The notes beneath the pieces are model-generated. The model was given only the letters and a program-made list of their open reading frames with translations, was not told the origin of the DNA and did not search any database. The position numbers and the translations under genes are program-made. 64,000 bases of DNA from assembly GCA_022775005.1 (NCBI GenBank), contig JALFJR010000066.1, forward strand, positions 1 through 64,000, read 5' to 3'. Numbering within the stretch: position 1 is the stretch's first letter; each line of letters starts with the position of its first letter. Of this stretch, positions 17,527 to 25,185 are shown piece by piece. The stretch is from Parabacteroides sp. (GTDB lineage Bacteria > Bacteroidota > Bacteroidia > Bacteroidales > Tannerellaceae).

Positions 17527-19068
17527 ATGAAACATTTCAACAGTAAAGCGTGCATCCTTGGCTTAGGTGTGATCATCGGCGCAGGCATCATGATCGCCAC
17601 CTACAAGACCTCGGTCTATTTCTCGACCGACGAATCCTGCATGATGTGCCATGTGCACCCGCATGTAGAGAACAGTTGGAAACTCTCTAAACATGTCAAC
17701 AACGGAAGTGGCGTGAAGACGCACTGCGTGGCTTGCCACCTGCCGCCTCAAAACCAGACCTGGGAGCATTACAGCGCCAAGGCGAAATTGGGCTTAAAAG
17801 ATGTTTGGGCCTACCTGACAAAAGACAGTGCCGATTTTCAATGGGACACCAAGTCGGAGTTGGAGCATGCCGTGACCTACATTCCCAACGCCTCCTGCAA
17901 GGAGTGCCATCAGAACCTCTTCCCGGAGGGTATCACCGACGATGGTGTGACAGCGCACCTCTATTATGAGGACAACGAGGAGAAGCTGAACCTGCAGTGT
18001 ATCAGTTGCCACCTCGATGCCGGACACTATAACCCCAACTATGTCCACTCCAAACTGGCCGGTGTACCCGGTGCCAACAATGCGCAAGCGGTTGATACCA
18101 GCCTCTTCTATAAAGAGCCGACGACGGTGACCAGCTTCACGGATTACGTGGAGCAGATCCCGGGAACCATGGTCGCTTTCAAGATGATCGCCGTGCCGGG
18201 TGGTAGCTTCCAAATGGGTAGTCAGAACAACGAGCCATTCCACCAAGCAGATGAGGCCCCCCTGCACAAAGTGACACTCGACCCCTTCTTCATGGCAGAG
18301 GTGGAAGTGACCTGGGATCAATATTGGGCTTTCTACGCACAGACCATGAGTGAGGGACGTACACCGCCCGAGACAGTTTACGCCAACAACAGCAATCCCG
18401 ATGTAGATGCCATTTCTGGCCCTACTCCTCCGTTTGGTTTCCCCGATCAAGGATGGGGCGGTGGCGATCGTCCGGCCATCACGATGACACACTATGCCGC
18501 AGAGACCTTTTGCCAATGGCTCTCCAAGCAAACCGGCAAGAAATATCGCCTGCCGACCGAGGCAGAATGGGAGTATGCCGCTCGTGGTGGCACGGAGACT
18601 CCCTACTTCTTTACGGGCAACCCGAAAGACTTCTCCGACCAGGGCTTCTGGCGTAAGTTCTTCGACGCAAAGACCGACAGCATCAGCAGCTACGTGATCT
18701 ACGCCAAGAACAGCAAGAACAAGACAGCCGAGCCCTCAGCGGTCAAGGCGAACCCCTTCGGCTTGAAGAACATGCTGGGCAACATCATGGAGTATTGCGC
18801 CGACAAGTACAACCCGGAGGCATACAGCAAGTTGGGCGACAACGCACATAACCCGCTGATCACCGAAGGTGAGGAATGGGTAGTGCGTGGCGGCAACTAC
18901 ACCTCCGACGCAGCAGACCTGCGTTGCGCGGCTCGTGGCTACACCAAGCACGATGCCTGGTTGAAGACCGACCCACAGCAGCCGAAGAGTATCTGGTGGT
19001 ATTCTGACATCCGAGGCATTGGCTTCCGTGTCGTATGCGAGCCGGATGCGGCTATCGCCACAAAGTAA
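17527..19068 (+). CDS. NapC/NrfH-like tetraheme cytochrome c fused to an FGE-sulfatase (SUMF1-like) domain
   Basis: 513 residues. A single N-terminal membrane anchor (about 8-25) is followed by four heme-binding CxxCH motifs (CMMCH 38-42, CVACH 67-71, CKECH 124-128, CISCH 158-162), as in NapC/NrfH quinol dehydrogenases. A linker leads to an FGE-sulfatase domain at about 218-508 (PGGSFQMGSQNN, YRLPTEAEWEYAARGG, RCAARG, GIGFRVVCE). The catalytic cysteine pair of true formylglycine-generating enzymes is not seen in the RGGNYTSDAADLRC region. The protein should take electrons from menaquinol, or give them back, on the periplasmic face. It heads a run with two Tat-exported sugar-active enzymes. 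Partner and substrate are unknown. Confidence 0.9.
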   Translation: MKHFNSKACILGLGVIIGAGIMIATYKTSVYFSTDESCMMCHVHPHVENSWKLSKHVNNGSGVKTHCVACHLPPQNQTWEHYSAKAKLGLKDVWAYLTKDSADFQWDTKSELEHAVTYIPNASCKECHQNLFPEGITDDGVTAHLYYEDNEEKLNLQCISCHLDAGHYNPNYVHSKLAGVPGANNAQAVDTSLFYKEPTTVTSFTDYVEQIPGTMVAFKMIAVPGGSFQMGSQNNEPFHQADEAPLHKVTLDPFFMAEVEVTWDQYWAFYAQTMSEGRTPPETVYANNSNPDVDAISGPTPPFGFPDQGWGGGDRPAITMTHYAAETFCQWLSKQTGKKYRLPTEAEWEYAARGGTETPYFFTGNPKDFSDQGFWRKFFDAKTDSISSYVIYAKNSKNKTAEPSAVKANPFGLKNMLGNIMEYCADKYNPEAYSKLGDNAHNPLITEGEEWVVRGGNYTSDAADLRCAARGYTKHDAWLKTDPQQPKSIWWYSDIRGIGFRVVCEPDAAIATK

Positions 19069-19114
19069 ACAACGTATTTTATAAACATATTATAGATATA
19101 AAACAGTATATATC

Positions 19115-20500
19115 ATGAAAAAAGAAAACGGAATCAGCAGACGTTCCTTCTTGAAGAGTTCTGCTTTAGCAGGTGCGCTGGGCGCAATCGGAACAGGTAG
19201 CACCATGAGTGTATTAACCAGTTGTGGTGGTGGCGAGGGTGCCGCTAACGCCAACAAGCCGTTGAAACAACCGGGCGAGTATTACATCCCCGAGTTGCCG
19301 GATCTGGCTGCTGACGGCAAAGAATTGAAAGCCGGTGTGATCGGTTGTGGTGGCCGTGGTTCAGGTGCCGCATTCAACTTCTTGAACGCTGCCAATGGCG
19401 TAACAATCACAGCCTTGGGCGATACCTTCCAAGAGCGTGTGGATGATTTGGCCAAGAAATTGAAAGATGAGAAGGGCATCGACGTGCCTGCCGACCATCG
19501 CTTCGTCGGCTTGGATGCCTATAAGCAGGTGATCGATAGCGGTGTGGATGTAGTGATCGTGGCTACTCCTCCCCTCTTCCGTCCGATCCACTTCCAATAC
19601 GCAACCGAGAAGGGCAAACACTCCTTCTTGGAGAAACCGATCTGCGTAGATCCGGTCGGCTATCGTACAATCATGGCTACTGCGAAGCAGGCACAGGCGA
19701 AGAACCTCTGCGTCGTAACTGGTACGCAACGTCACCACCAGCGTAGCTATGTAGAGTCCTACAAGAAGGTGATGGAGGGCTTGATCGGCGAGATCACCGG
19801 CGGTATCGTTTACTGGAACCAGAGCATGCTGTGGTATCGTGAGCGTCAGGCTGGCTGGAACGACTGCGAGTATATGATCAAGGACTGGGTGAACTGGAAA
19901 TGGCTCTCTGGCGACCATATCGTAGAGCAGCACGTGCATAACATCGACGTATTCACTTGGTTCAGCGGTTTGAAACCAGTGAAGGCAGTCGGCTTCGGCT
20001 CTCGTCAGCGCCGTATCACAGGTGACCAATACGATAACTTCAGCGTAGATTTCACGATGGAGAACGGCATCCACCTGCACAGTATGTGTCGCCAGATCGA
20101 CGGTTGCGCCAACAACGTCAGCGAGTTCATCCAGGGTACGAAGGGTTCTTGGGACAGCTCTACAATGGAGATCAAGGACTTGGCAGGCAACGTGATCTGG
20201 AAATATGACAGCGAGGCAGAGAAGGCCAACTTCAAGCAGACCGATCCCTACACGCTGGAGCACGTGAACTGGATCAACTGCATCCGTCAGGGCAAGCCGA
20301 TCATGCAAGCTACGGAGACAGCCGTATCTAACATGGCGGCGATCATGGGTCGTGAGTCAGCTTACTCAGGTGCGGAGACCACTTGGGATCAGATGACCGC
20401 TTCTCAATTGGACTATACGCCGAAGGATTTGAACCTCGGCAAGATGGATATGAGTGGATTCGTGGTTCAGGTTCCGGGTAAGCCCATTGATAAGAAATAA
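19115..20500 (+). CDS. Tat-exported Gfo/Idh/MocA family oxidoreductase
   Basis: 461 residues. A twin-arginine signal (ISRRSFLKSSALAGAL) is followed by a possible lipobox (VLTSC), implying export of a folded, cofactor-loaded protein. The Rossmann motif GVIGCGGRGSG binds NAD(P), EKPICVDP is the family's EKP motif, and GDHIVEQHVHNIDVF carries likely catalytic residues. The family oxidises sugars or glycosides at C-3 or similar positions. Because NAD is scarce in the periplasm, it probably keeps its cofactor bound and needs an electron acceptor; the cytochrome encoded 46 nt upstream is a natural candidate. The link is an inference. Confidence 0.92.
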   Translation: MKKENGISRRSFLKSSALAGALGAIGTGSTMSVLTSCGGGEGAANANKPLKQPGEYYIPELPDLAADGKELKAGVIGCGGRGSGAAFNFLNAANGVTITALGDTFQERVDDLAKKLKDEKGIDVPADHRFVGLDAYKQVIDSGVDVVIVATPPLFRPIHFQYATEKGKHSFLEKPICVDPVGYRTIMATAKQAQAKNLCVVTGTQRHHQRSYVESYKKVMEGLIGEITGGIVYWNQSMLWYRERQAGWNDCEYMIKDWVNWKWLSGDHIVEQHVHNIDVFTWFSGLKPVKAVGFGSRQRRITGDQYDNFSVDFTMENGIHLHSMCRQIDGCANNVSEFIQGTKGSWDSSTMEIKDLAGNVIWKYDSEAEKANFKQTDPYTLEHVNWINCIRQGKPIMQATETAVSNMAAIMGRESAYSGAETTWDQMTASQLDYTPKDLNLGKMDMSGFVVQVPGKPIDKK

Positions 20501-20505
20501 GAACC

Positions 20506-21423
20506 ATGGATAGAAGAAACTTTATCAGAACAGGTATGGCGGGTGCGGCAATCGCGATGAGCGGTTCCACCCTCGCCGCTTGTGCGTCAAAACCGACTGA
20601 AGCTGCGGCCGAGAAGCCAGGCAAAGGCTTAGAGCTGAAGCTCTCCTTGCAAGAAAACAAGGCTCCGGGCAAGACCTTGGAGGAGCAGTTCGACTACATG
20701 GAGGCAAATGGCGTTGTCGGTTTTGAGCCGGGAGGTGGCGACCTACCGCAACGGGTAGAGAGCCTGAAGAAAATGCTGAGTGGCCGCAATATCCAGGTCA
20801 GCGCGATCTGTGCCGGCTTCAAAGGATTCATTCTTTCTACGGATCCGGCTATCCGCAAGCAGTGCATGGACACCATGAAGGAGATCATCGCCGCTGCGGG
20901 TGAGTTAGGCTCTACCGGCGTGATCATCGTGCCAGCGTTCAACAGCCAGGTTCCGGTGTTACCGCACAACAAGGAAACCAGAGATTTCCTCTGCGAGCAG
21001 TTCAATGAGATGGGTACTTATGCCGCACAGCATGGAACGACTGTGATCTTTGAGCCGTTGAACCGCCGCGAGTGCTTCTACCTGCGCCAGGTGGCGGATG
21101 CCGCTTCACTTTGCCGAGACATCAACAATCCCGGCGTGCGTTGCATGGGCGACTTCTGGCACATGACTTGGGAGGAGACCTCCGATATGGGTGCTTTCAT
21201 CTCCGCCGGCAAATACCTACAGCATGTGCATGTGGCCAGCCGTAAGAACCGTAACATTCCGGGTACGGATGGCGAGGCGGATAACTATGTAGAGGGATTC
21301 CGTGGTTTGAAGATGATTGGCTACGACAAGTATGTCAGCTTCGAGTGCGGTTGTCCCGAGGATCGTGAAGCCCCCATCACCGCCGCCTTGAAGTTGCTGC
21401 GTGAGCAATGGGAGCAGGCTTAA
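20506..21423 (+). CDS. Tat-exported sugar isomerase/epimerase-like TIM barrel protein
   Basis: 305 residues. A twin-arginine signal (MDRRNFIRTGMAGAAIAMSG) ends at the lipobox LAAC, so a lipoprotein outside the cytoplasm. The rest is a xylose-isomerase-like (AP endonuclease 2) TIM barrel with likely metal ligands in VIFEPLNRRE, MGDFWHM, HVHVASRK and SFECGC. Five nt separate it from the oxidoreductase gene. It may isomerise, epimerise or cleave the keto-sugar made by that enzyme, as in Bacteroides 3-keto-glycoside pathways; this role is inferred. Confidence 0.9.
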   Translation: MDRRNFIRTGMAGAAIAMSGSTLAACASKPTEAAAEKPGKGLELKLSLQENKAPGKTLEEQFDYMEANGVVGFEPGGGDLPQRVESLKKMLSGRNIQVSAICAGFKGFILSTDPAIRKQCMDTMKEIIAAAGELGSTGVIIVPAFNSQVPVLPHNKETRDFLCEQFNEMGTYAAQHGTTVIFEPLNRRECFYLRQVADAASLCRDINNPGVRCMGDFWHMTWEETSDMGAFISAGKYLQHVHVASRKNRNIPGTDGEADNYVEGFRGLKMIGYDKYVSFECGCPEDREAPITAALKLLREQWEQA

Positions 21424-21433
21424 CACTGTATAT

Positions 21434-22147
21434 ATGGCTATTGTTTATGCAAATATGAGATTGAGTGAGGTGGTGGAAGAGCACCCCTCACTCATTCGTG
21501 TAGTCAATCGCTTCGGGATTCGCTTGGGTTTAGGCGACAAGAGCGTGCGCACCCTCTGCGAGGAACATGCGTTAGACACCGACTTCCTCTTGACCATACT
21601 GAACACCTATCTCAATGAAGAGTATTTCCCCGAGAAGAAGCTACAGACTTTCCATGTCTCCCAACTAATCGGCTACCTCACGAAGACCAACCAAGATTAC
21701 CTGCGCAATCAACTGCCCAACATCGAGCGGCATTTAGGCTATTTCATCCAGCATAGCCCACAAGGCAATCAATCCTTGGCCCTCTTAGGTCGCTTCTTCG
21801 CCTCTTTCAAAGCAGAACTGACCGCACGTATCCGGGAAGACGAGGAACGCAGATTCCCCTATTGCCGACAGCTCATTAAGGGTAATCCGTTGCCAGAGCT
21901 ATCCAGGAGCCTGCAACAGCAGACCAACCAACCAACGGATGACTCCATCGAAGCACTCTTGGCTGACTTGAAAAGCATTATGGTGAAACACTTGACCGGA
22001 GCGTTCAACGATAACCTTTGCTGTGCTGTACTGCTCGCTATCTGCAGCTTGGAGAAAGACATCAAGCAACACAACCGCATTCGCTATCGCATCCTCCAGC
22101 CGATGATCCTCTCAATGGAACAATCATGCGCCGAAACAAGAAGATAG
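21434..22147 (+). CDS. RIC/ScdA-like helical protein with degenerate hemerythrin ligands
   Basis: About 237 residues, cytoplasmic, mostly helical. The N-terminus (MRLSEVVEEHPSLIRVVNRFGI) resembles the ScdA_N/DUF542 module of RIC di-iron repair proteins. The rest has the plan of a hemerythrin-like bundle (LPNIERHLGYF, IREDEERRFPYC, IKQHNRIRYRILQP). Several His ligands expected in YtfE/ScdA are replaced, so iron binding is doubtful. The ATG at 21434 is chosen; an earlier frame start at 21401 overlaps the preceding gene. It overlaps the LuxR gene by 22 nt. It may sense nitrosative or redox stress, or be a non-enzymatic partner of the regulator. Confidence 0.75.
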   Translation: MAIVYANMRLSEVVEEHPSLIRVVNRFGIRLGLGDKSVRTLCEEHALDTDFLLTILNTYLNEEYFPEKKLQTFHVSQLIGYLTKTNQDYLRNQLPNIERHLGYFIQHSPQGNQSLALLGRFFASFKAELTARIREDEERRFPYCRQLIKGNPLPELSRSLQQQTNQPTDDSIEALLADLKSIMVKHLTGAFNDNLCCAVLLAICSLEKDIKQHNRIRYRILQPMILSMEQSCAETRR

Positions 22148-22695
22148 CCCTGATCCTCAAAGACACCCTGCGTAGTTGCGGCCTGCAAAGCCTGTTGGTG
22201 GACTATTTCCAGCCCGTGGAGATTTCCCCATTCCCTACGTTAGAGGCGTTGCAAGCCAATGGAATGGAGAGTTTCGACTATTACTTTACCGAGGCGGAAC
22301 TATTCACCGAGGGAGCCGACTATTTCTTGCCACGCCGCAACAAGACCATCGTCGTGGTCAGTCACAGCGAGGCAACGCACAACGGCAACACCTTGCAACG
22401 CTTAGCGACCGACCTCACGCCCGAACAATTGATTGAGCAGCTGCAACAAATCTTCGAGGCCACGCCTCAACAGGAGTTCGAGGGCAGCAAAGAGCTCTCC
22501 ACTCGTGAGATCGACGTGCTGCAGCTGGTAGCGAAAGGCATCACCAACAAGGAAATTGCCGACAAGCTGAACATCAGTCTCAACACCGTCTTGACCCACC
22601 GCAAGAACATCACGACCAAGTTAGGCATCAAGACAGTCTCCGGCCTCACCTTCTACGCCATCATGAATGGCTTCCTATCCGGAGAGGAATTCTGA
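22126..22695 (+). CDS. LuxR-type HTH regulator
   Basis: 189 residues. A C-terminal GerE/LuxR helix-turn-helix (about 122-180; STREIDVLQLVAKGITNKEIADKLNIS) follows a receiver-like N-terminal region (MRRNKKIALILKDTLRSCGLQSLLVDYF) without an obvious phospho-acceptor Asp. It starts inside the RIC-like gene, so the two are translated together and likely act together. The position at the end of the cytochrome/Tat enzyme run suggests it controls that run or reports on redox state; this is an inference. Confidence 0.88.
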   Translation: MRRNKKIALILKDTLRSCGLQSLLVDYFQPVEISPFPTLEALQANGMESFDYYFTEAELFTEGADYFLPRRNKTIVVVSHSEATHNGNTLQRLATDLTPEQLIEQLQQIFEATPQQEFEGSKELSTREIDVLQLVAKGITNKEIADKLNISLNTVLTHRKNITTKLGIKTVSGLTFYAIMNGFLSGEEF

Positions 22696-24153: not shown

Positions 24154-25185
24154 TTATGACAAATTTCCTGTCTCCTTCACGGCATAAATGCGACGGATGA
24201 TATCGACGACCTTCAAACCCTCCAAGGCAGTGGTCGTGATGGTGGCACCCGCCTCTCCGCTCAAGGCCTCCACCACATTCCGAATCACGAAGTTATGGTT
24301 TTGCGCCGACCCTTTATAAGGACCGTAATCATTGCCCGGATTGGTCGGTGCCAAAGTAGGCATCTCATAATCTTGCACATGGCAATAGGTCACCTCGTTC
24401 ATGTATTGTCCGCCGATCTTCACGCTTCCCTTCTCTGCCACGATGGTCATGCTGCTCTCCAAGTTCTTATCCCACACCGCCGTAGAGTAGTTCAAGCAGC
24501 CCATGCCTCCTTTGGCGAATCGAAAATTGACAAAGCCGGAATCCTCGAAAGCGGTCAGCGACTGGTGGTTGAAATCAGCAAAACGGCCCTGAATATCGCA
24601 GATATCGCCAAACAGCCAATACATAATGTCAATAAAGTGCGAGAACTGCGTGAACAGCGTGCCACCATCCAACGCCGCATCGCCGTGCCAGCCACCCGGT
24701 TTGTAATAACGGGCATCGCGGTTCCAATAGCAATTCAGCTGCACCATATAGATCTGCCCCAACTTACCGGAGTCAATCAACTCCTTGATCCAGACCGAGG
24801 GAGGCGAATAGCGATTCTGCATCACGCAGAACACCTCCCGACGTTGCTTCAAGGCGGTTTGCAAGACAGCCTCCGCATCGGTGCGTGTAAGCGCCATCGG
24901 CTTCTCGATCACCACATGATGACCGGCCTCCAACGACTGGATGGCTAACGCGGCGTGCAAGCCATTGGGCACACAGATGTTGATCACATCAATCGCCAAA
25001 TCAGCGGCCAAAAGAGCCTCTATCGTGTTGAAAAAAGGAACGGGATAGGCCTCAATGCCCAACTCCTCCTGCGGACGAACGTCGCACAACGCCACCAACT
25101 CAGCTCCCGCATCCCGGGTAACCATCTCTGCATGGCGCTTTCCTATATGGCCGCAACCGACTACGGCAAAACGGATTTTCTTCAT
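24154..25185 (-). CDS. Gfo/Idh/MocA oxidoreductase, WlbA/WbpB-like
   Basis: 343 residues, no signal peptide, cytoplasmic. NAD-binding VVGCGHIGKRHAE is at the N-terminus, VVIEKPMALT is the EKP motif, and CYWNRDARYYKPGGWHGDAALDGG resembles the active-site region of UDP-N-acetyl-glucosaminuronate 3-dehydrogenases. These oxidise C-3 so that a DegT aminotransferase can add an amino group, giving 2,3-diamino sugars. Exactly such an aminotransferase gene lies upstream with a 4-nt overlap. The assignment to this pathway is by pairing and motif; other steps are not in the window. Confidence 0.85.
   Translation of the reverse strand: MKKIRFAVVGCGHIGKRHAEMVTRDAGAELVALCDVRPQEELGIEAYPVPFFNTIEALLAADLAIDVINICVPNGLHAALAIQSLEAGHHVVIEKPMALTRTDAEAVLQTALKQRREVFCVMQNRYSPPSVWIKELIDSGKLGQIYMVQLNCYWNRDARYYKPGGWHGDAALDGGTLFTQFSHFIDIMYWLFGDICDIQGRFADFNHQSLTAFEDSGFVNFRFAKGGMGCLNYSTAVWDKNLESSMTIVAEKGSVKIGGQYMNEVTYCHVQDYEMPTLAPTNPGNDYGPYKGSAQNHNFVIRNVVEALSGEAGATITTTALEGLKVVDIIRRIYAVKETGNLS

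Follow-up and report, generated by a model that had tools for sequence, protein, structure and literature searches.

A candidate flavin carrier of the FGE fold between exported Gfo/Idh/MocA oxidoreductases and a tetraheme cytochrome in Bacteroidales

The locus and its first two genes

The stretch analysed here, called the window, comprises 64,000 nucleotides of contig JALFJR010000066.1 from Parabacteroides sp. (assembly GCA_022775005.1), and carries at 17527-22695 five genes, all of them present as open reading frames on the plus strand and supported by Pfam and NCBIfam, as the first-pass annotation had proposed. The first encodes a NapC/NrfH-type tetraheme cytochrome fused to a domain of the formylglycine-generating enzyme (FGE) fold, and the second a Tat-targeted oxidoreductase of the Gfo/Idh/MocA family (hereafter Gfo). 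It is with these two genes, and with the possibility that the FGE-fold domain carries a flavin between their redox centres, that this work is principally concerned; their features are the following.

17527-19068, plus strand: NapC/NrfH-type tetraheme cytochrome fused to an FGE-fold domain, 513 residues; PF03264 and PF03781 above cut-off
17542-17619, plus strand: N-terminal membrane helix, residues 6-31; a helix in the AlphaFold2 model
17638-17652, plus strand: haem motif 1, C38-H42; invariant in 40/40 aligned fusions
17725-17739, plus strand: haem motif 2, C67-H71; invariant in 40/40 aligned fusions
17896-17910, plus strand: haem motif 3, C124-H128; invariant in 40/40 aligned fusions
17998-18012, plus strand: haem motif 4, C158-H162; invariant in 40/40 aligned fusions
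18181-18948, plus strand: FGE-fold domain, residues 219-474, without the FGE copper cysteines
18406-18426, plus strand: ApbE-like flavinylation motif D294-A-I-S-G-P-T300, with T300 the predicted site of flavin mononucleotide (FMN); from motif conservation, as defined in the available part of PMC12052999
18958-18996, plus strand: second subfamily loop, W478-x3-D482-PQ-x-PKS-x-W490; kept in fusion and stand-alone forms
19115-20500, plus strand: Tat-exported Gfo/Idh/MocA oxidoreductase, predicted lipoprotein, 461 residues

The cytochrome half matches PF03264 (NapC/NirT) at residues 8-171 (E 5.2e-21), and both class features of NapC/NrfH, the membrane helix and the four CXXCH motifs, are present in it; when the cytochrome domain alone was used in Phmmer no cytochrome of this kind was matched, and a profile search did match one. 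The Lys/Asp pair K85 and D92, invariant in 24/24, aligns with residues of NrfH (2j7a), and by its equal spacing we equate it with the menaquinol-site pair numbered Lys82/Asp89 in the available part of PMC4683180. The link to quinones that had been proposed for this cytochrome is thus borne out at the level of conserved residues, as a predicted activity. The fusion shares helix, haems and quinol-site residues with the NrfH/NapC quinol dehydrogenases, from which it differs in its C-terminal FGE-fold domain and in having a Gfo enzyme in place of a nitrite or nitrate reductase.

In the second gene product the Tat signal, the family domain, the Rossmann glycine motif and the EKP lysine of a Gfo/Idh/MocA oxidoreductase were all found as expected, and because the twin arginine, the phenylalanine that follows it and a lipobox-like cysteine are kept in 39/39 aligned proteins, we predict that it is exported as a Tat lipoprotein. 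The closest fold to its model is that of the glycoside 3-dehydrogenase DgpA, with levoglucosan dehydrogenase near, and further near folds are glucose-fructose oxidoreductase (GFOR, 1h6d), RgNanOx (6z3c) and the sulfoquinovosidases dependent on nicotinamide adenine dinucleotide (NAD; 8qc2). Two narrower assignments were tried and gained no support: for GH109, no domain matched in the Pfam scan at E 0.01, with a profile match to 2ixa of 8.1e-6, and with the BT_2158 glycoside 3-dehydrogenase family (NCBIfam NF058561) the protein reaches 22.7 bits where the cut-off is 750, which sets it apart from the 3-keto-glycoside system of Bacteroides (BT2157, DgpA). We know of no cytochrome-FGE partner in that system.

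Conservation of the fusion and of the FGE-Gfo pair

The full-length fusion occurs in 38/295 genomes of the order, and the loci read here number 51, namely the window, 40 neighbourhoods (39 full-length and one partial, the set being drawn without the full-length fusions of genomes G014, G244 and G248) and 10 of 80 named loci, these being the best 80 of 555 relatives. All belong to Bacteroidales, with Parabacteroides, Tannerella, Sunxiuqinia and Maribellus among the carriers that have names. Directly downstream and on the same strand lies the Gfo gene in 46/51, so that the gene order is not due to chance, and the neighbourhood check suggested in the first-pass annotation did not find the fusion mostly without its Tat enzyme. 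As for the five exceptions, Gfo stands further down in L042 and L044, it is inverted on a short contig in L045, and L046 and L051 have none; a more distant Gfo-family gene also follows the fusion directly in L042.

Relatives of the FGE domain also exist as stand-alone proteins, in 45 loci (L083-L127) from Bacteroidota, Planctomycetota, Verrucomicrobiota and Acidobacteriota, and the same Gfo family follows directly in 31/45 of these as against 1/25 of the more distant FGE loci (L128-L152), which are mostly other FGE proteins; the sole Gfo-adjacent case among the 25 is L140, which for adjacency was counted with them (31/45 is 32/46 less L140). Among 20 Planctomycetota loci, which were chosen and not randomly drawn, a Gfo gene lies 0.6-2.0 kb downstream in 15 and at 2.2 kb in two more. 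Since the stand-alone FGE precedes the same Gfo family outside Bacteroidales, FGE and Gfo look like the core, and the NapC-type cytochrome like a Bacteroidales addition. Haem has been joined to this same FGE domain in another way in four proteins of Verrucomicrobia (L097, L099, L102, L112), which carry one or two PSCyt1 haem domains; this joining is separate from the NapC fusion.

The FGE-fold domain and its motif

The fold assignment rests on PF03781, matched at residues 219-474 with E 2.6e-42. When the domain is aligned by profile to 6s07 and 1y1e, the first of the two cysteines that we take to bind copper in those enzymes falls in a gap and the second in a non-cysteine column, and with the NCBIfam models of PvdO, GldK and EgtB the protein scores far below cut-off. 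The window's subfamily is therefore unlike the FGE/PvdO family in lacking the copper pair, in its two loops, DxxSxPT and DPQxPKSxW, of which the C-terminal one is common to fusion and stand-alone forms, and in its linkage to ApbE and Gfo.

It is the first of these loops that resembles the flavinylation motif of ApbE substrates, which the available part of PMC12052999 gives as D-x-x-[S/T]-G-A-[S/T] with FMN on the last residue; this definition replaced a first guess of ours, [SD]GA[TS]xT with FMN on the sixth residue, which found no matches. In the 97 aligned subfamily sequences (51 fusions and 46 stand-alones, L140 being counted here among the latter), D294, [A/P]299 and [S/T]300 are invariant, G298 and T300 are so in all 51 fusions, and the relaxed form D..[ST]G[AP][ST] is found in 48/51. 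The D, [AP] and [ST] are present in 20/20 Planctomycetota loci as well, and the motif is absent from 24/24 other FGE relatives, of which just 6 have all seven columns gapped. In the 449,656 residues of all open reading frames called in the loci, the strict form D..[ST]GA[ST] has 15 matches, 13 at the FGE motif position and 2 elsewhere. Position 299 varies among relatives of the same operon type (P in L048 and L058, A in L055 and L078), which suggests that both residues work; the available part of PMC12052999 has nothing on acceptance of P by ApbE.

The AlphaFold2 model is confident in the FGE core, but in the blocks that hold the subfamily loops the mean predicted local distance difference test (pLDDT) is 54 and 55. 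An absent cofactor or simple flexibility could each explain such values, which by themselves are no evidence. In one stand-alone-type case (L088:4684-6852, plus strand) the FGE domain is C-terminal in a 723-residue protein whose N-terminal half appears by eye to be FG-GAP/VCBS-like.

Association with ApbE

A tie between this FGE subfamily and ApbE, the enzyme responsible for covalent FMN attachment, is what appears to be new here, and three samples point to it. Firstly, a bulk Pfam scan found ApbE in 10/82 proteins neighbouring stand-alone FGE, and by tblastn an ApbE gene lies within about 2.3 kb, in either orientation, in 17/45 stand-alone loci against 1/25 others, again L140 (Fisher p 0.0016). 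Secondly, among Bacteroidota genomes with a stand-alone FGE match of at least 189 bits, a sample mostly separate from the first (G550, for at least one, is the genome of L109), ApbE is found within 3 kb in 11/33. Thirdly, 76/195 Planctomycetota genomes carry the FGE subfamily, and in at least 55/76 ApbE lies within 2.5 kb of it, 13 being not adjacent and the other 8, whose FGE matches are weak and for the most part partial, being left out; for the 55 pairs the recomputed gaps have a median of 393 bp and a range of 221-906 bp, plus one of 2357. Adjacency in the second and third samples was read by eye from match positions, and the third includes the genome of L096. Of the 20 chosen Planctomycetota loci, 12 hold an ApbE gene.

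At the level of whole genomes, ApbE is present anywhere in 75/76 FGE-positive Planctomycetota against 94/119 FGE-negative ones (p 2.1e-5), and in 30/30 genomes behind the named stand-alone loci, 28 of which have no adjacent ApbE. A tree of 55 ApbE sequences (14 of the 18 named FGE-adjacent ones, without L104, L115, L122 and L127, together with all 11 that are unnamed and a chosen set of 30 more) places 24/25 FGE-adjacent rows in two clades, and the labels change 5 times in it as compared with 18.5 in shuffles (0/500 as low); the two clades also hold five non-adjacent ApbEs, each from a genome in which the FGE subfamily is present too, and neither clade contains any of the five from control genomes without FGE. 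Like the ApbE-dependent extracytosolic flavoproteins (NqrC/RnfG, DUF2271, DUF3570), the subfamily has an ApbE neighbour, in its stand-alone form, and a DxxS/T...S/T motif; unlike theirs, its motif often has Pro for Ala and Arg for Gly.

For the fusions, ApbE is found in 36/37 other fusion genomes, the one missing it being 61% complete, and also in the window's own genome; as ApbE is nearly universal in controls, this is merely compatible with the hypothesis. The only ApbE match of the own genome (L163, G000:C39:4804-5628) is read in frame from a sequence that appears by eye to be dihydroxy-acid-dehydratase-like, with no stop, in a frame of 932 residues, which is either a real fusion or a sequence error. 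We also considered FMN on Gfo rather than on FGE, and rejected it: matches to [ST]GA[ST] are single and scattered, in 6/18 ApbE loci with none common to them, and lie within the Gfo protein in two of those six, L087 and L105. Between stand-alone FGE and ApbE in two Maribacter loci, L091 and L121, stands a small gene that is YceI-like by Pfam in L121 and, judged by eye, resembles this in L091; it might point to the handling of isoprenoids or quinones.

The downstream genes and the variable enzyme set

Behind the cytochrome-FGE and Gfo genes stand three more, as follows.

20506-21423, plus strand: Tat TIM-barrel epimerase/isomerase-like protein, 305 residues, a variable partner; PF01261 (AP_endonuc_2)
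21434-22147, plus strand: RIC/hemerythrin-like protein, a local add-on; TIGR03652 below cut-off; start at 21434 or GTG at 21401
22126-22695, plus strand: LuxR-type regulator, paired with the RIC-like gene, ATG start; PF00196 (GerE)

From the coordinates, the five genes are separated by gaps of 46, 5 and 10 bp and then a 22-bp overlap of the RIC-like and LuxR genes, and with its alternative GTG start the RIC-like gene would also overlap the TIM-barrel gene; co-transcription is predicted from these gap lengths alone. A scan of the locus gave no promoter-like or terminator-like signals above shuffles (4 vs 5.6 +/- 2.2 and 10 vs 7.0 +/- 3.1, respectively). Elsewhere in the window, at 24154-25185 on the minus strand, there is another Gfo/Idh/MocA gene, which lacks a Tat signal and lies beside a gene that by eye is aminotransferase-like; it probably belongs to nucleotide-sugar synthesis and is unrelated to the five-gene locus.

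The reading of the third gene as a Tat sugar isomerase-like protein agrees with PF01261, a value of 5.6e-154 to the solved protein 3kws and one of 1.1e-19 to the 3-keto-D-glucoside 4-epimerase 6wn6, and a twin-arginine signal and lipobox-like cysteine can be read from its sequence. One TIM-barrel family occurs in 12/41 fusion loci and a second in 8/41, three of the latter on the opposite strand. The RIC-like protein scores 49.9 bits with TIGR03652, against a cut-off of 204.7, and as the RIC and LuxR pair is found in only 8/51 fusion loci (the window, L033-L035, L073-L075 and L076), its place in a general system has to be given up in favour of a local add-on. In L076 (6877-7818, minus strand) a hemerythrin/RIC-like domain and a LuxR helix-turn-helix form one protein of 314 residues, divergent from the cytochrome-FGE gene, which supports the view that the window's pair is one sensor-regulator.

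The enzymes that accompany the cytochrome-FGE protein are not always the same: in the fusion operons L048, L055, L058 and L063 there are two tandem Gfo-family genes, joined in some of them by genes for ThuA and a glycosyltransferase. Among 87 proteins neighbouring the fusions, ThuA was found in 6 and a DUF1080 3-keto-disaccharide hydrolase in 3; L037, L039 and L060 are loci with such neighbours. The 3-keto-glycoside chemistry that had been suggested finds some links in these neighbours, which occur in a minority of operons, and in DgpA as the closest fold.

Discussion

Taken together, these data are consistent with the first two genes encoding a periplasmic respiratory dehydrogenase, in which a flavin-bearing FGE domain would stand between the NADH bound to Gfo and the haems and menaquinone, a reading to which we give a probability of about one half. 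Its steps would be: (i) Gfo, folded in the cytoplasm with NAD bound and exported by Tat, would oxidise in the periplasm a hydroxyl of a sugar or glycoside, probably at C3, a reaction presumed from its membership of the family; (ii) the NADH would pass its hydride to FMN attached covalently by ApbE to T300 of the FGE domain, since soluble cytoplasmic enzymes cannot re-oxidise it in the periplasm; (iii) and finally, the FMN would split the two electrons and deliver them singly to the four c-type haems and from there to menaquinone, a flow for which the protein has the haem motifs and the quinol-site residues. The TIM-barrel protein may process the keto-sugar, and the RIC/LuxR pair may provide local redox-responsive control. 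Bound NAD, flavinylation, the direction of the electrons, the substrate and the formation of a complex are here predicted from sequences.

The first-pass annotation had already supposed that sugar oxidation outside the cytoplasm is coupled through bound NAD to the quinones, and this coupling gains from the conserved module of cytochrome-FGE and Tat Gfo and from K85 and D92. Its electron route, in which the FGE domain had no role, fared worse. Bound NADH cannot plausibly pass a hydride straight to haem, and direct transfer is therefore rejected on chemical grounds and an FMN carrier put in its place: the FMN on T300 would supply the two-electron/one-electron step that was absent, and the link to ApbE with the ApbE-like motif suggests that the FGE domain is the missing flavin carrier. 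Outside Bacteroidales, the flavin-FGE and Gfo pair would be the core, with electrons going to other carriers. In its wider form the proposal, tentative and somewhat short of an even chance, is that the FGE fold provides a new class of ApbE-flavinylated carrier that makes respiratory dehydrogenases of exported, NAD-locked Gfo enzymes in at least four phyla, with a wire from FMN through haems to menaquinone in one polypeptide in Bacteroidales.

Several observations weigh against this. As regards the motif, the strict form is found in 10/51 fusions and 3/46 stand-alones, the window not among them; P replaces the published A in 38/51 fusions, including the window; the stand-alones are mostly DAVTRPT-like, with R for G in 28/46 and in most of the ApbE-adjacent ones; and the motif loop is of low confidence in the AlphaFold2 model. 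As regards ApbE, it is found in 0/51 of the fusion loci (in the stretch around each fusion) and in 27/30 control Bacteroidota genomes without an FGE match, and no ApbE was found in G805, one of the Planctomycetota genomes with an FGE-Gfo pair. As regards the pairing itself, 14/45 stand-alone loci have no Gfo at the expected place (L103, L124 and L126 have one nearby elsewhere), three of the 20 Planctomycetota loci are without any Gfo match, and among the four PSCyt1-FGE fusions it is at the expected place just for L099 (not L097, L102 or L112). Finally, GFOR and RgNanOx are redox-neutral with a bound cofactor and do not need an acceptor.

The imperfect motif of most members and the wide spread of ApbE would also fit an FGE domain with a structural or binding role, resembling C-type lectins, that docks Gfo or the sugar at the cytochrome, with ApbE serving another, unlinked flavoprotein. 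PorK/GldK and the variable protein TvpA do share the fold, and are not known to be enzymes. Such a role is nevertheless doubtful: adjacency to ApbE recurs in three samples and several phyla, the other proteins of the ApbE loci share no common [ST]GA[ST] site, having single scattered matches in 6/18, and D294, [AP]299 and [ST]300 are constant in 97 sequences.

That GFOR, RgNanOx and the sulfoquinovosidases, all redox-neutral, are among the closest folds raises another alternative, in which Gfo would oxidise and then re-reduce its substrate with the bound NAD, the TIM barrel epimerising in between, and the cytochrome would reset dead-end reduced enzyme or be regulatory; the GFOR of Zymomonas is redox-neutral between two sugars and has no known respiratory partner. 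We consider this unlikely, as a dedicated quinol-type tetraheme fusion in 38/295 genomes fits a net flow of electrons better.

The flow could also be the reverse, from menaquinol through the haems and a possibly flavinylated FGE to Gfo-bound NAD+ and a keto-sugar or other periplasmic acceptor, making of the pair a periplasmic reductase like most NapC/NrfH partners. NapC/NrfH proteins usually move electrons from quinol outward, and the fusion matches NrfH (2j7a); on the other hand, with potentials of about -320 mV for NAD+ and about -75 mV for menaquinol, this reduction would run uphill, and the ThuA and DUF1080 neighbours, even if in a minority of operons, indicate a catabolic 3-keto chemistry, all of which makes this direction rather improbable. 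It is very improbable that the FGE domain acts on another periplasmic target as a genuine metal-dependent oxidase, formylglycine-generating or PvdO-like, with electrons given by the haems, in view of its absent copper cysteines and its scores far below the cut-offs of the PvdO, GldK and EgtB models.

The preferred reading, a flavin-FGE carrier between Gfo and the haems, has a parallel in the lactose 3-dehydrogenase LacABC, which is of the flavin adenine dinucleotide (FAD)/GMC type and has a cytochrome. Found with DUF1080 in Caulobacter and Pedobacter, LacABC is membrane-bound and oxidises glycosides at C3 in the periplasm (PMC9007349, available part), and differs from the window enzyme, which is predicted to be an NAD-binding Gfo. 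A literature search for Gfo with ApbE or formylglycine-generating, subscription papers being mostly outside its scope, found only unrelated work, and the combinations of ApbE or flavinylation with SUMF1, FGE or MocA, and of NapC/NrfH with FGE or MocA, gave no such system among the matches listed. Word searches of the main text of a flavinylation survey (PMC8238504) did not find FGE, SUMF1, formylglycine, Gfo or NapC.

According to that survey (PMC8238504), 670 genomes have ApbE without a known substrate, and an FGE flavin carrier, if real, could explain some of them. In Bacteroidota and Planctomycetota, Tat-targeted Gfo/Idh/MocA enzymes leave the cytoplasm for a compartment that offers no free NAD, and we know of no described route for their re-oxidation there. 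If our reading holds, a dedicated flavin and haem partner would provide a route of re-oxidation for one large exported Gfo family, and a quinone-linked route of glycan oxidation would become directly testable with two proteins.

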